From NCBI RefSeq assembly GCF_001536285.1, contig NZ_FAOZ01000003.1:372001-436000 (forward strand): a stretch of 64,000 nt of DNA, given 5' to 3'. A program made the position numbers and the translations under genes. A model generated the notes under the pieces. That model had not been told where the DNA came from, searched no databases, and saw nothing but the letters and a program-made list of their open reading frames with translations. Each line of letters begins with the position of its first letter. Position 1 is the stretch's first letter. The DNA comes from Parafrankia irregularis (GTDB lineage Bacteria; Actinomycetota; Actinomycetes; Frankiales; Frankiaceae). Shown here piece by piece: positions 4,469 to 38,155 of this stretch.

Positions 4469-4604
4469 CTGCCAAGACCTCGCACTCACCTGGGCTGCCT
4501 CCGTTCGTCGGATCACCGGCTCACCCCGCAGGCACCTGCCGGCCACGGGGACCGGCACAGCGGGAACGGGCCGAGCGCCGCCCGGCAGCCATCCAAGGAT
4601 GATG

Positions 4605-5512: not shown

Positions 5513-6898
5513 TTACTCGGCCGCCGCCGCGTCAGCCGGGTCGGCGGGCTTCGGCTCGGCGGTCAGCAACGGCGAGTGGGTGTTCGACGGCCACTGCGGC
5601 CGGTAGTAGCCGCGGAAGTGCAGCTCGCCACCGCGCAGCTCACGGATCGTCAGAAAGTCGCCCTTGTAGCCGCGGTGGTCGTACGGCGCGAACGTGATGT
5701 AGGCGCCCGGGCCACCGTTCGTGCACGGCATCCACTTGATCTTCTCGAGGCCGAGCCGGACCTCGCTCGGGATGGGGATCATCGCGTTCGCGATGCCGTG
5801 GATGCCGGCGCGGGCCGTGTCGTAGCCCAGCGCGACGACGACGTTGCGGGTCACCCGCCCGAACCTCGCCTCGAACCGCCGGACCATCGCCTCGTAGTTC
5901 GGGTTCGCGCCGTCCTCACCGAGCTGGTCGACGCCGTGCCAGCCCTCCAGGCCCTCCGCCCAGGCGTTGGAGTTGGAGTAGAACATGAACGCGGTGCCCA
6001 TGAAGCGGGGCGGATCCCAGTCGAGGGCTTTGAACGCGGCCGCGAAGTGGAACGTCGAGTAGCCGTAGCCCATGTAGACGATGGCCTCGGCGCCCTGCTC
6101 GCGCATCGTCGCGAGCTTCTCCTGGAAGCCACGCGGGTTCGGCCCGAGGCTGACCTCCTTGACGATCTCCACGCCGACGTTCTGCGCGGCGAGCCGGAAG
6201 TAGTCCGAGTAGTGGTCCCCGGAGGAGCCCTTCTCCCAGAAGAACCCGACCTTGGTGTAGCCCTGCTGCGCGCACCAGTTGGCGCCCATCACCGACTCGG
6301 TCGGGATGTCCCCGTTGGCGACCGTGAAGCAGTAGTCCCCCGCGAACTTCACGCTGCCGGTCCAGCCGATGCAGGCCACGCCGGTGGCGTTGACGACGTC
6401 CTGCAGGTTCAGCGAGTTGTCGGAGATCATCGGGCCGAGCACCACGACGCAGCCGAGCTCGACCAGCTTCAGGTAGCCCTGCCGGACCTTGCGGTAGTTC
6501 TCCCGCGGCAGGCCGCGCGCGTCGACCGTGATGATCTCGACCGGCCGGTCGTAGACCCCCTCGTTCAGCGCGTCCTCGATCGCCAGGATGGTCGAGTCGA
6601 TCCAGTCCGACAGCAACTGGCCGAGGTCCATGTCGACCAGGATGCCGATCTTGACGGGTTCGAACGGGTCCCCCTGGCCGACCACCCCACGGGTCGGCGG
6701 GTACACGACGATCGACTCGACCGCCTTCTCCCCGACCTGGCCGCCGCCCTCGTACCAGCGGCCCTGCGGGTCGTTGTAGGTGACCGCGTCCGTCCCGCGC
6801 TCCACCGTCGACACCGCGCGGTCGGGCCGGGCGATCCCATGGTCGATCGGCGCCGGGAACATCCGGTGCGCGTACTGCACGGGCTTTTCCTCGCTCAT
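5513..6898 (-). CDS. Periplasmic-binding-protein-like (Peripla_BP_6) protein without signal peptide
   Basis: 461-aa protein with the type 1 periplasmic-binding fold used by branched-chain amino-acid/amide ABC receptors. Visible pieces are VKIGILVDMDLGQLLSDWI, then AIEDALNEGVYDRPVEIITV, VVLGPMISDNS, GATEAIVYMGYGYSTF-like segments and a late LGYDTARAGIHGIANA. The N-terminus (MSEEKPVQYAHRMFPAPIDHG) is hydrophilic, with no signal peptide or lipobox, so the protein is predicted to be cytoplasmic. No permease or ATPase genes lie nearby. In this setting it may sense or bind a pathway intermediate, by analogy to cytoplasmic receptor proteins such as AmiC; that role is inference. Confidence 0.8.
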   Translation of the reverse strand: MSEEKPVQYAHRMFPAPIDHGIARPDRAVSTVERGTDAVTYNDPQGRWYEGGGQVGEKAVESIVVYPPTRGVVGQGDPFEPVKIGILVDMDLGQLLSDWIDSTILAIEDALNEGVYDRPVEIITVDARGLPRENYRKVRQGYLKLVELGCVVVLGPMISDNSLNLQDVVNATGVACIGWTGSVKFAGDYCFTVANGDIPTESVMGANWCAQQGYTKVGFFWEKGSSGDHYSDYFRLAAQNVGVEIVKEVSLGPNPRGFQEKLATMREQGAEAIVYMGYGYSTFHFAAAFKALDWDPPRFMGTAFMFYSNSNAWAEGLEGWHGVDQLGEDGANPNYEAMVRRFEARFGRVTRNVVVALGYDTARAGIHGIANAMIPIPSEVRLGLEKIKWMPCTNGGPGAYITFAPYDHRGYKGDFLTIRELRGGELHFRGYYRPQWPSNTHSPLLTAEPKPADPADAAAAE

Positions 6899-35082: not shown

Positions 35083-35706
35083 ATGCCCGTCGACCTCGCC
35101 GAGCTGCTGCGCCCGGCGCACACGGTCCTGCTCACCCAGGAATGCCAGAACGGCGTGGTCGGGGCCCAGAGCTCGCTGCCGGCGCTGGCCGCGGCGGCCC
35201 GGGACAGCGGCATGCTGGCCAACGTCGGCCGGCTCGCCGCGGCCGCCCGGGCCGCCGGGGCCGGGGTACTGCACGCCATCGCGGCCCGCCGGCCGGACGG
35301 CCGCGGCGCCAGCCACAACGCCCGGCTGTTTGCCGCGGTGGAACGCGCGCCGGTCCAGCAGTTGCTCGGCACCCCGGCGGTCGAGGTCGTCGACGAGATC
35401 GGGCGCGCCCCGTCCGATCTCGTCTCCACCCGGCTGGCGGGCCTGTCCCCCATCGCAGGCACGGACGCCGACGCCCTGCTGCGCAACCTCGGCGCCCGCA
35501 CCCTGGTCATCGTCGGCGTGTCCGCCAACATCGCGATTCCCAACGCGGTGTTCGACGCGGTGAACCTCGGCTACCAGGTGGTCCTCCCCCGCGACGCGAT
35601 CTGCGGAGTGCCCACCGACTACGCCGATGTCCTCATCGCGAACACTCTCTCGCTGGTCGCCACGATCACCACCACCGACGAGATCCTCGGAATCTGGCAG
35701 CCCTGA
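35083..35706 (+). CDS. Isochorismatase-fold protein with altered catalytic triad
   Basis: 207-aa protein of the isochorismatase-like/cysteine-hydrolase fold. The usual D-x-Q start is VLLTQECQNGVVGAQSSLPA, with Glu at the Asp position. The central Lys region reads SDLVSTRLAGLSP (Arg). The nucleophile loop reads LVIVGVSANIAIPNAVFDAV with no Cys. All three triad positions are therefore changed relative to canonical members, matching a group found next to acyl-CoA genes in actinobacteria whose function is unknown to me. It follows the SDR gene by 40 bp of tandem ribosome-site-like repeats. Confidence 0.8.
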   Translation: MPVDLAELLRPAHTVLLTQECQNGVVGAQSSLPALAAAARDSGMLANVGRLAAAARAAGAGVLHAIAARRPDGRGASHNARLFAAVERAPVQQLLGTPAVEVVDEIGRAPSDLVSTRLAGLSPIAGTDADALLRNLGARTLVIVGVSANIAIPNAVFDAVNLGYQVVLPRDAICGVPTDYADVLIANTLSLVATITTTDEILGIWQP

Positions 35707-35855
35707 CCCGCGAGGTACGACTCAGCGAGTATCAACAGCCGATCGCGCCACCCCGCAGCCGATGACCGTCGCGCTCAGGATTAGAGCTGACCCGACGAGT
35801 GAACGATTCTGGTCGTCCTGGTCCTGGAGCTGGTCGTAGTATCCAGCGCGGCCGC

Positions 35856-35889
35856 GGCGCGGAGCGGCGGAGCCGGACCGCTCCGCGCC
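35856..35889. terminator. 12-bp GC-rich hairpin
   Basis: GGCGCGGAGCGG and CCGCTCCGCGCC form perfect arms around a 10-nt loop, about 150 bp after the isochorismatase-fold gene. No T tract follows. Likely terminator for the caiB/SDR/hydrolase set. Confidence 0.5.
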
Positions 35890-35902
35890 TGGTTTGTTAC
35901 CT

Positions 35903-35956
35903 GGCAAGCGTGAAGGATTTTGGTCGTTGGAACGACCAAAATCCTTCACGCTTGCC
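35903..35956. repeat. Perfect 54-bp palindromic repeat (copy 1)
   Basis: Two 26-bp arms, perfectly complementary, around a 2-nt centre (GG). The core of the left arm is AAGCGTGAAGGATTTTGG. A diverged second copy lies at 36761-36808. It could extrude as a cruciform or fold as a very stable RNA hairpin. It does not look like a classical terminator because no T tract follows. Confidence 0.95.
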
Positions 35957-36351
35957 ACCTCCCAACCTCCTCCAGCACCTCACGGTTCTCGGGTCGGAGC
36001 GCGCGGTGACCATATCCCGTCAAACTCTCCCGGTCCGGGGTCGTGCGAGCGAGGCTCGCGCTCCAACAACGCGACCGAACCCGGGATCCGGGCGAAAGCA
36101 TCGAAAAGGCCGAAGATCTCGGACGCACCCGAGAGGGTGATGCGGTCCCGAGGAGTGGCAGATCCGGGCGATTACCCGCCACAGACCACGATCATGCCGA
36201 ATCGCTCCGACTACTGAAATCCGCCGACTTTTCGGCTGGCGGCGGTCGGCGGGACAGTCAGGTTAAGGTTATCCACCGCTGCGGGGTACGGTGTAGTTTT
36301 CCACAAGTTCGGGGATGATCGGCGTACTCGCGAGATTTTCGCGAATGTGGA

Positions 36352-36759
36352 GTGGTGCCACCGACGCCGACAGAAACGTTCCCGCTCCACTGGCAGACGA
36401 TTGCCGAGGAGCAGGACGGTGTCATCACGGTCGCCGAGATCGCCTACCGGCGTATCGAACGGCGCTACGGCCTTCCGGCCGCGCAACGGCAGGCCGCCGT
36501 CGACCTCGACGGCCGCCGATATCTCGACGTCTGGTACGCGCCATGGCGGGTCTGGGTGGAGATCGACGGTGCCGCACATCGGGAATCCCGCCAGTGGTGG
36601 GACGATCTCGCCCGACAGAACCTGGGCGTCCTCGACGACCGGCTCGTGCTCAGGTTCCCGACCTGGCTACTCCGCCAAGACCCCCAGCACGTTGCCGCGT
36701 TGGTGAAGCTCGCGCTCCACCAACGCGGCCGGATTCCTGATTCCGCTTTGAGGAGGTGA
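36352..36759 (+). CDS. DUF559-type endonuclease-fold protein with apparent internal deletion
   Basis: 135-aa product. The C-terminal about 75 residues match the DUF559/Vsr-like nuclease fold: RRYLDVWYAPWRVWVEIDGA, then AHRESRQWWDDLARQN and LRFPTWLLRQDPQHVAALVK. The N-terminal about 30 residues (WQTIAEEQDGVITVAEIA) look like the beginning of the winged-helix AbiEi-like domain that normally precedes DUF559 in actinobacterial proteins of about 300 aa. The two pieces are joined directly, so about 150 residues appear missing. GTG start at 36352 or 36355. The stop is 1 nt from the second palindromic repeat; the first lies about 400 bp upstream. Activity is uncertain. Confidence 0.65.
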   Translation: MVPPTPTETFPLHWQTIAEEQDGVITVAEIAYRRIERRYGLPAAQRQAAVDLDGRRYLDVWYAPWRVWVEIDGAAHRESRQWWDDLARQNLGVLDDRLVLRFPTWLLRQDPQHVAALVKLALHQRGRIPDSALRR

Positions 36760-36760
36760 C

Positions 36761-36808
36761 AAGCGTGAAGGATTTCGGTCATTGGGACGACAAACATCCT
36801 TCACGCTT
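36761..36808. repeat. Diverged palindromic repeat (copy 2)
   Basis: Outer arms AAGCGTGAAGGAT and ATCCTTCACGCTT are perfectly inverted; the inner part is mismatched around ATTGGGACG. It matches copy 1 at 35903-35956 over most of its length. It starts right after the DUF559-type stop, so the pair brackets that gene. As a hairpin it could end the DUF559 transcript. Confidence 0.85.
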
Positions 36809-36871
36809 ATCCGGTAGCAAGACCAGCCGCGGCGGCGGCGCGGCGGCGCCACCGCGCCAGGTCCGCGCTGG

Positions 36872-38155
36872 TCAGGCGGTGGCGTTGCTTGCGAGGGCGG
36901 ACAGGTCGGTGCCGGCGCCGGTGCGCTCGAATCGGCCCTTGTCGAAGGAGCGGGTGGTGACGTCGTGCCCGGCGACCTCCGCGCGCAGCGCGCCGACCGT
37001 GGAGCGCTCGCGCGGGCGATGCGCGAACGGGTCGAACGAGTACCAGCGCATCGCGTTCTCGAACGTGATCTTGTTCAGCTCGTCGTCGGGGACGTCGGCG
37101 GCGACCACGGCCAGTTCCTCGCCCGCGTTCGGCCAGGACGAGTCCGAGTGCGGGTAGTCGCACTCCCAGGCGATGTTGTCCAGGCCGATCATGTCCCGCA
37201 GCTTGATGCCCACCGGGTCGGCGATGAAGCAGGTCAGGAAGTGCTCGCGGAACACCTCGCTGGGCAGCTTCCCGCCGAAGTCCTGGCCCGTCCACAGGTG
37301 GTGCATGTCGTAGGTGCGGTCGATGCGGTCGAGGAAGTACGGAATCCAGCCGGTTCCGCCCTCGGAAAGGGCGATCCGGATCCCCGGGAACTTCTTGATC
37401 ACACGCGACCACAGCAGGTCGGCGGCGGCCTGGCAGATGTTCATCGGCTGCAGGGTGATCATGACGTCGACCGGGGCGTCGGCCGCGGTCACCGACAGCT
37501 TGCCCGAGGAGCCCAGGTGGATCGACAGCACCACGTTCTCGTCGACCAGCGCCTGCCACAGCGGGTCCCAGTGCTCGTCGTGGAAGCTGGGCAGCCCCAG
37601 CGTCGCCGGGTTCTCGGTGAAGGTGATCGAGTGGCAGCCCTTGGCCGCGAGGCGGCGCACCTCCGCGGCCGCCAGGTGCGGATCCCACAGGATCGGCAGC
37701 GCCATCGGGATGAACCGGCCCGGGTAGGCCCCGCACCACTCGTCGATGTGCCAGTCGTTGTAGGCCCGAACGACCGCCAGGGCGAGATCCTTGTCGTCGG
37801 CCGCGGAGAACACCCGGGCGCTGAAGCCGGGGAACGACGGGAAGCACATCGAGCCCAGCACCCCGCCGGCGCTCATGTCCTTCACCCGCTCGTGGATGTC
37901 GAAGCAACCCGGGCGCATCTCGTCGAAGGCCGTCGGCTCGACGCCGTACTCCTCCTTGGGCCGCCCGGCCACCGCGTTCAGCCCGATGTTCGGGATGACC
38001 GACCCGTTGAAGGTCCACACGTCGGAGCCGTCGTCGAGCCGGCGCACCCGCGGCGCCACGTCGGCGAACCGGGCCGGCAGCCGCCCGTCGAACATGTTCG
38101 GTGGCTCGACCAGATGGTCGTCCACGCTGATGAGGATGAGATCGTCCGCTTTCAT
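36872..38155 (-). CDS. Amidohydrolase family (ACMSD/LigW-like) protein
   Basis: 427-aa amidohydrolase-2 protein, paralogous to the one at 10795. Metal motif VDDHLVEPPNMFDGRLPARF near residue 11, VLSIHLGSSGKLSVTAADAP in the middle, GLDNIAWECDYPHSDSSWPN near residue 350 with the expected Asp. The C-terminal about 60 residues (after FDPFAHRPRER) are an extension absent from the paralogue. Such enzymes are metal-dependent decarboxylases or C-C hydrolases; in this operon it could act on a CoA-pathway intermediate. It is the last gene of the minus-strand set, separated from the crotonase by 64 bp that contain two inverted repeats. Confidence 0.85.
   Translation of the reverse strand: MKADDLILISVDDHLVEPPNMFDGRLPARFADVAPRVRRLDDGSDVWTFNGSVIPNIGLNAVAGRPKEEYGVEPTAFDEMRPGCFDIHERVKDMSAGGVLGSMCFPSFPGFSARVFSAADDKDLALAVVRAYNDWHIDEWCGAYPGRFIPMALPILWDPHLAAAEVRRLAAKGCHSITFTENPATLGLPSFHDEHWDPLWQALVDENVVLSIHLGSSGKLSVTAADAPVDVMITLQPMNICQAAADLLWSRVIKKFPGIRIALSEGGTGWIPYFLDRIDRTYDMHHLWTGQDFGGKLPSEVFREHFLTCFIADPVGIKLRDMIGLDNIAWECDYPHSDSSWPNAGEELAVVAADVPDDELNKITFENAMRWYSFDPFAHRPRERSTVGALRAEVAGHDVTTRSFDKGRFERTGAGTDLSALASNATA

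Follow-up and report, generated by a model that had tools for sequence, protein, structure and literature searches.

The window analysed here, a 64-kb stretch of a Parafrankia genome (G000:C3:372001-436000; genome G000, 9.54 Mb in 82 contigs), contains a short nuclease gene bracketed by two long palindromes, and this arrangement has the appearance of a spreading genetic element of a kind not described before. Judging from the sequence comparisons described below, the locus is probably a decayed representative of an element that is widespread among actinomycetes, that consists of a palindrome, a nuclease gene and a second palindrome, and that resembles the REP/RAYT systems while using an unrelated nuclease. 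We give an even chance to the more specific claim of a new class of selfish element, in which an AbiEi-guided nuclease of the Vsr/EDxHD type would lie between its own long palindromes and seed palindromes and gene stubs, with protein and palindrome paired lineage by lineage.

The palindromes and the gene sit between two convergent genes. The features of the locus are:

35083-35706, + strand: isochorismatase-like gene, left neighbour
35843-35962, + strand: left arm of a 120-bp inverted repeat (BLAST and ungapped comparison), palindrome 1 inside
35902-35957, no strand: palindrome 1, perfect, 56 bp, 27-bp arms, 2-nt centre
36051-36077, + strand: extra 27-mer resembling the gene's 3' end, in the interval from palindrome 1 to the gene, 89% to 36705-36731, family D3
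36352-36759, + strand: window gene, 135 codons
36415-36434, + strand: 20-mer at the deletion junction, resembling two sites of the full-length gene 540 bp (180 codons) apart
36706-36731, + strand: 3'-terminal codons of the window gene, the 26-mer relic query, with a relic before 24 of 96 dispersed palindromes
36752-36871, - strand: right arm of the 120-bp inverted repeat (BLAST and ungapped comparison), palindrome 2 inside
36758-36811, no strand: palindrome 2, diverged copy whose first 2 bp overlap the stop codon of the gene
36872-38155, - strand: amidohydrolase-like gene, right neighbour

The earlier note had reported a perfect palindrome with a 2-nt centre, which is correct, but its length of 54 bp with 26-bp arms has to be extended to 56 bp and 27 bp. 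The diverged second palindrome that it described was found again at 36758-36811 and is self-complementary at 40 of its 54 positions. The gene starts 394 bp beyond the end of palindrome 1, in agreement with the reported distance of about 400 bp, whereas palindrome 2 does not lie 1 bp downstream of the gene but overlaps its stop codon by 2 bp. The arms of the surrounding inverted repeat match at 79% in BLAST and at 85 of 120 positions in an ungapped comparison. Chance as the origin of the palindromes was rejected on the basis of hairpin-arm lengths, Markov simulations and half-site shuffles: the longest other perfect hairpin arm in the window has a length of 15, the longest arm in ten Markov simulations did not exceed 13, and all four matches of a 19-nt half-site scan of the window fell within palindromes 1 and 2, where shuffles expect 0. 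A search of the window against Rfam returned no match and therefore the hairpin is not explained by any known RNA family. By eye, GTAG is absent in and directly beside palindrome 1 and lies a few bases outside palindrome 2. A degenerate half-palindrome, GTGAACGATTCTGGTCGTCC, can also be made out by eye at 35797-35830, about 100 bp ahead of palindrome 1.

The window gene is a shortened form of a longer gene. The same genome has a full-length paralogue on contig C23 (318 aa, L043:4944-5900, - strand), and the two proteins are 83% identical across the common nuclease part. The window gene corresponds to the 318-aa gene minus 540 bp in frame; it retains the first ~28 codons and the entire Vsr/EDxHD-like nuclease domain, and the AbiEi-like module is mostly deleted. 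The C23 gene is flanked by inverted arms of ~400 bp which are 98-100% alike over most of their length and contain a palindrome each, a near-identity that we read as a probable recent duplication or gene conversion. These inverted repeats (L043:4474-4881 and 6054-6401) also contain 15-bp tandem repeats. A full-length gene is likewise found in Parafrankia sp. EUN1f (G001; L159:4700-5692, - strand), with palindromes on both sides (4519-4590 and 5968-6039). Its neighbours are an acyl-CoA dehydrogenase and a thiolase, those of the C23 gene an ABC transporter and an HTH regulator, so that the bracketed gene occupies three places in two Parafrankia genomes, each with different neighbours. In Parafrankia, brackets are present at each of the three genes or gene derivatives that belong to the window gene's subfamily. 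As for other relatives in the same genome, a homologue on C32 has palindromes ~2 kb off on each side, the DUF559 gene at L033 has one palindrome ~1.1 kb away, and the DUF559 genes at L031, L032 and L034 have none within 1.5 kb.

The DUF559 label which the gene had been given is weak as far as the window protein is concerned (Pfam E of 0.014, not reaching the cut-off); the nuclease fold held up through the full-length relatives and a structure model. For the full-length protein Pfam reports AbiEi_4 and DUF559 only, both below the cut-off and the latter on the C-terminal part, and the N-terminal 190 residues are matched by the AbiEi models of the PADLOC defence library (best E 1e-18). An AlphaFold model based on 42 loci-derived sequences reached a mean pLDDT of 92.3 and a pTM of 0.86. 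Residues 9-201 of the model align with AbiEi (6y8q; Foldseek E 1.8e-5, Z 11.2), and residues 204-307 with the homing endonuclease I-Bth0305I (3r3p; Z 12.1, rmsd 2.4 over 95 residues), the endonuclease-like protein 3hrl (Z 12.0) and Vsr (1cw0; Z 10.0). These matches show a gene family whose predicted product joins an AbiEi-like module to a nuclease domain like that of Vsr and the EDxHD enzymes. Two residues, E209 and E250, never vary across the 42 sequences, and D239, G253, H256, D265 and R268 are at least 90% conserved; E209, D239, E250, H256 and D265 form a candidate acidic/histidine active site. According to the alignment, the segment with the conserved nuclease residues is retained in the window protein. 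No HUH Y1 transposase was recognised, as both the Pfam matches (AbiEi_4 and DUF559, below the cut-off) and the folds of the model (AbiEi and Vsr/EDxHD) are different ones.

A protein scan of named genomes found relatives in Parafrankia, Candidatus Frankia meridionalis and Nocardioides. The genes of Frankia meridionalis and Nocardioides Soil805 also lie between palindromes, whose sequences are quite unlike those of the window. By profile search the family is present in 203 of 393 actinomycete genomes. For 76 homologue loci we compared the 600 bp ahead of the gene with the 600 bp behind it and counted scores of at least 19.5 as positive, a threshold that was chosen once the control maximum of 19.0 had been seen. 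Matching repeats on both sides, nearly all of them palindromic, were observed at 38 of the 76 loci, and at 32 of 68 when the loci that had given us the idea (L179-L186) were excluded; the bracketed loci span seven families and 16 genera of Actinomycetes. Outer windows of the same loci gave no positive in 72 comparisons (maximum 19.0) and sliding windows elsewhere none in 232 (0/82 and 0/150; maximum 18.5). For a second set of 14 genomes, 14 of 22 new distinct loci were bracketed with a control maximum of 17.5, and the paired repeats of several distant members were less clearly palindromic. When locus pairs were mismatched, the 99% level was 18.5 and the maximum 221.5, a maximum which we take to stem from related or duplicate loci (the values of L203 and L179 are identical). 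These two loci appear to be one place and are both counted within the 76; L179 is bracketed by inspection and is missed by the script owing to a run of N. The score also varies with the placement of the gene end: values of 46 and 41 dropped to 11.5 and 22 when the ORF match entered the palindrome.

A typical bracket pair consists of palindromes of 42-56 bp, one close upstream of the ORF, often 28-150 bp ahead, and the other overlapping or just past the ORF end. The two are identical or nearly so within a locus (at L221 the upstream and downstream palindromes share identical 42-mers), stand as direct copies at some loci and as inverted copies at others, and are unrelated between lineages; some lineages have palindromes that end in GTAG/CTAC (L179, L187). 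This comparison shows that members of the family in many genera are bracketed by matching palindromes of ~45-55 bp which are lineage-specific and agree within the locus. The REP/RAYT-like arrangement suggested by the earlier note is thereby supported, with homologues in seven actinomycete families bracketed by palindromes of their own lineage.

Bracketing also goes along with the state of the nuclease. Among the 63 loci with a readable protein, 36 of 51 with an intact nuclease motif were bracketed, compared to none of the 12 that had lost it (Fisher p 6.5e-6). The loss of the presumed catalytic residues is shown by these counts to accompany the loss of the brackets, and as all 12 motif-lost proteins come from Frankiaceae the contrast may reflect a single evolutionary event. 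By our test half of the homologues were unbracketed, 15 of them with an intact motif. The Frankiaceae homologues L190, L194-L202, L206 and L208 have lost the nuclease motif, kept the open reading frame and stand without brackets; they have possibly been domesticated as a DNA-binding protein.

The palindrome of the window is dispersed across its genome. When up to three mismatches are allowed, half-sites number 92 on one strand and 93 on the other, compared to 1 and 0 for the reversed pattern, and a covariance model of the palindrome gave 150 strand-wise matches. From the fetched loci we parsed 109 distinct copies, which corresponds to about 100 dispersed copies in the genome. The same model was applied to 40 genomes and gave 122 matches in EUN1f, six in one genome of another genus and one in one more; the palindrome is present in two of the six genomes of the genus and the model found none in the other four members. 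Some copies were weak or lay near the end of a stretch, and therefore 98 of the 109 were used in the profile search and 96 in the 26-mer test, which additionally left out gene-bearing copies. With crude ORF calling, 32 of the 98 copies lie between convergent genes, 23 between co-directional and 4 between divergent genes, 2 inside ORFs, and 37 remained uncalled.

The dispersed copies have ~200 bp in common on both flanks. With up to six mismatches allowed, the 26-mer from the gene's 3' end was detected at 24 of the 96 solo copies; every match lay on the same strand and preceded the palindrome by 34-77 bp. Six control windows each gave 0 of 96. Longer stretches of the 3' end stand immediately ahead of the palindrome at L045 in this genome and at L161 in EUN1f. 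The profile search found no gene relics in the flanks of the 98 solo copies, possibly because nine-codon stubs might be expected to escape it, and the relic evidence is that of the 26-mer. It shows that an apparent relic of the 3' end of the gene often accompanies solo palindromes in Parafrankia. Near some copies in the same genome (L023, L106, L109, L079) lies a second palindrome subfamily, which has the form AGATCTGAGGATTTTGGTCG.

Comparable dispersal was observed in other genera. Genus g42 has the half-site CCATGATCATCAAGGATCGGTG, which was counted 25 and 24 times by strand in G079 and 11 and 10 times in G200, with zero in the controls, and one to six times in total in each of four sister species. 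For the Nocardioides-like genus g44 we searched ten genomes with a palindrome half of that genus: it was found 10 and 10 times in G227, 4 and 4 in G083, 2 and 2 in G386 and 4 and 4 in G508. Three further genomes have it 0-3 times on each strand, and it is missing from G401, G419 and G245. In G401 and G419 the gene is absent downstream of etfA, where some members of g44 have it, and elsewhere these genomes contain only a broken or distant homologue. G508 keeps palindromes alongside a split homologue. The sequences show that in some genomes the same palindromes are dispersed without the gene. The earlier note had proposed to count the copies and to see whether they cluster at DUF559 genes, and regarded scattered copies with no such link as evidence against the arrangement. 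The copies are scattered (~100), yet the link to the gene family is general: three Parafrankia genes are bracketed and solo copies carry the 3'-end relic.

It had also suggested looking for empty sites in relatives, and no clean one was found. Orthologous sites were compared at three places and none was a clean case of a precise insertion with a target-site duplication. The idea that EUN1f has an empty site at the place of the window locus was rejected: the BLAST ends were suggestive, yet the sites cannot be aligned, and the orthologous site is a different intergenic stretch of 261 bp with its own palindrome variant. An empty site for the solo copy C36:52847 was discarded as well, as EUN1f carries another palindrome there. 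The solo copy C36:42335 is common to both Parafrankia genomes. It looks as if palindromes turned over at favoured sites. The orthologues are L158 (G001:C161) for the window locus and L270 (G001:C352) for G000:C36:52847, and the palindrome subfamilies differ between the species.

The third place is the region downstream of etfA, which we compared in 29 g44 genomes, a non-random sample picked by match strength and by hand. The gene is found there in 6 of the 29, bracketed by a matching palindrome pair in three; it runs in the direction of etfA in one genome and in the opposite direction in five. Five gene-less genomes have a lysyl-oxidase-like gene 96-145 bp past etfA. By eye, the hairpins after etfA in the gene-less genomes are ordinary terminators, apart from the solo palindrome of the element type in G508. 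Gene-less genomes have a terminator where gene-bearing ones have a palindrome, and therefore palindrome and terminator replace each other: the first palindrome takes the place of the terminator rather than adjoining it, which leaves no target duplication to be read. Gene and palindromes so appear to come and go together at etfA, and the place is either a hotspot or the home of an old resident. The homologues at this site (L274, L275, L276, L262, L278, L255) encode proteins ~50-60% alike to that of G227.

Among known systems REP/RAYT is the closest working analogue. Two reports (PMC3116915, PMC8266576) describe dispersed intergenic palindromes together with a usually single-copy gene that has cognate palindromes next to it, and a lineage-specific pairing of the two. 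Here, too, we find dispersed intergenic palindromes, also in other genera, and cognate palindromes beside the gene (38/76; 14/22). The family falls outside REP/RAYT on the transposase, because RAYTs are HUH Y1 transposases whereas we see an AbiEi-like module with a Vsr/EDxHD-like nuclease; in addition, the palindromes here are long (about 45-55 bp). I-Bth0305I, an EDxHD homing endonuclease, has the closest fold to the catalytic domain (Z 12.1), and enzymes of this type are described (PMC3943268) as dimerising on a long target of nearly 60 bp; unlike it, the present gene is free-standing and intergenic between two palindromes, with an AbiEi-like module and dispersed solo sites. With the AbiEi antitoxin of the type IV AbiE system the N-terminal ~200 residues share their fold (6y8q, Z 11.2), and the palindrome on which AbiEi binds and represses (23-bp arms around a 3-nt centre, 23-N3-23, i.e. 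~49 bp; PMC3985639) matches our brackets in size. AbiE differs in that six examined neighbour proteins at three loci, all of housekeeping type, included no AbiEii or nucleotidyltransferase family member, and in the extra nuclease domain and the palindromes on both sides. MITEs and insertion sequences with terminal inverted repeats share the gene between inverted copies, as with the 400-bp inverted arms of the C23 copy, and miniature copies with gene stubs. In contrast to them each end is itself palindromic, the ends are often direct copies, no transposase was recognised and no target duplication was seen at the three compared places.

Several steps can be proposed for the preferred reading, a self-spreading palindrome-nuclease element. 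The AbiEi-like module would bind the palindrome as a dimer, as AbiEi does on its own ~49-bp operator, and the nuclease would cut there or right next to it. Through repair, or through recombination between palindromes, the gene and its palindromes could then be copied into new intergenic places; alternatively, palindromes with a mere gene stub would be copied. The 100-odd solo copies would be remnants or miniature derivatives of the element and would stand to it as REPs do to RAYTs. Of the two bracket palindromes, the upstream one may also act as operator of the gene, and both may serve as terminators.

This last possibility leads to the main rival, which we consider unlikely as a full account, although it may hold simultaneously for individual palindromes: the upstream palindrome is a self-repression operator of the AbiEi type, the downstream one a terminator, similar palindromes elsewhere in the genome act as terminators or regulator sites, and no mobility is involved. 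AbiEi does repress itself through such a palindrome near the start codon (PMC3985639), many upstream palindromes lie 28-150 bp ahead of the ORF, solo copies are mostly placed like terminators, with convergent or co-directional genes on either side, and at etfA a palindrome stands in for one. It leaves unexplained, however, why the downstream palindrome should copy the upstream one down to the identical 42-mers of L221, why solo Parafrankia copies have ~200 bp of flank in common along with a relic of the 3' end of the gene, and why copy numbers jump between sister species. Divergent, promoter-type positions are rare (4 of 98) and therefore speak against a regulon. Terminators alone were rejected as insufficient in view of the common flanks, the bracket pairs and the 3'-end relics.

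That the nuclease gene is a mere passenger, cargo trapped between two copies of a MITE- or REP-like palindrome moved by another transposase, seems quite improbable. Two independent insertions would yield brackets in direct or inverted orientation, as observed, and G508 has palindromes without an intact close homologue. Yet one gene family is bracketed in 16 genera by unrelated palindromes, the brackets accompany an intact nuclease site, and no such pairs were seen in the outer windows of the same loci or in sliding windows elsewhere. We regard as very improbable that the protein is a defence or DNA-processing enzyme which acts on hairpins or incoming DNA, with brackets that mark or insulate its own locus. 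The match of the N-terminal module to AbiEi models of a defence library and the Vsr-like fold, near restriction and repair enzymes, point in this direction, but the six examined neighbours are of housekeeping type without an AbiEii partner, and defence alone does not account for dispersed palindromes with gene relics.

In the open-access literature of PubMed Central, beyond which subscription papers and preprints may add to the picture, we found nothing on DUF559 with palindromes and, by title or abstract among the matches listed, nothing on AbiEi with palindromes as a mobile element, and no description of a DUF559/AbiEi fusion or of a role for such genes, of a DUF559 actinobacterial endonuclease, of a domesticated Vsr palindromic-repeat system, of dispersed palindromic repeats in Frankia (searched by title) or of actinobacterial nuclease-linked repetitive extragenic palindromes. 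DUF559/AbiEi fusion genes occur in about half of the sampled actinomycete genomes. Should the palindrome prove to be the site of the enzyme itself, the REP/RAYT arrangement would have been invented a second time, independently, and it would become clear where many of the dispersed palindromes of high-GC genomes come from. The family would also supply natural pairs of long-site nucleases and their targets, with the target flanking the gene. Since each lineage has palindromes of its own, the rule of recognition would be readable from sequence and directly testable.
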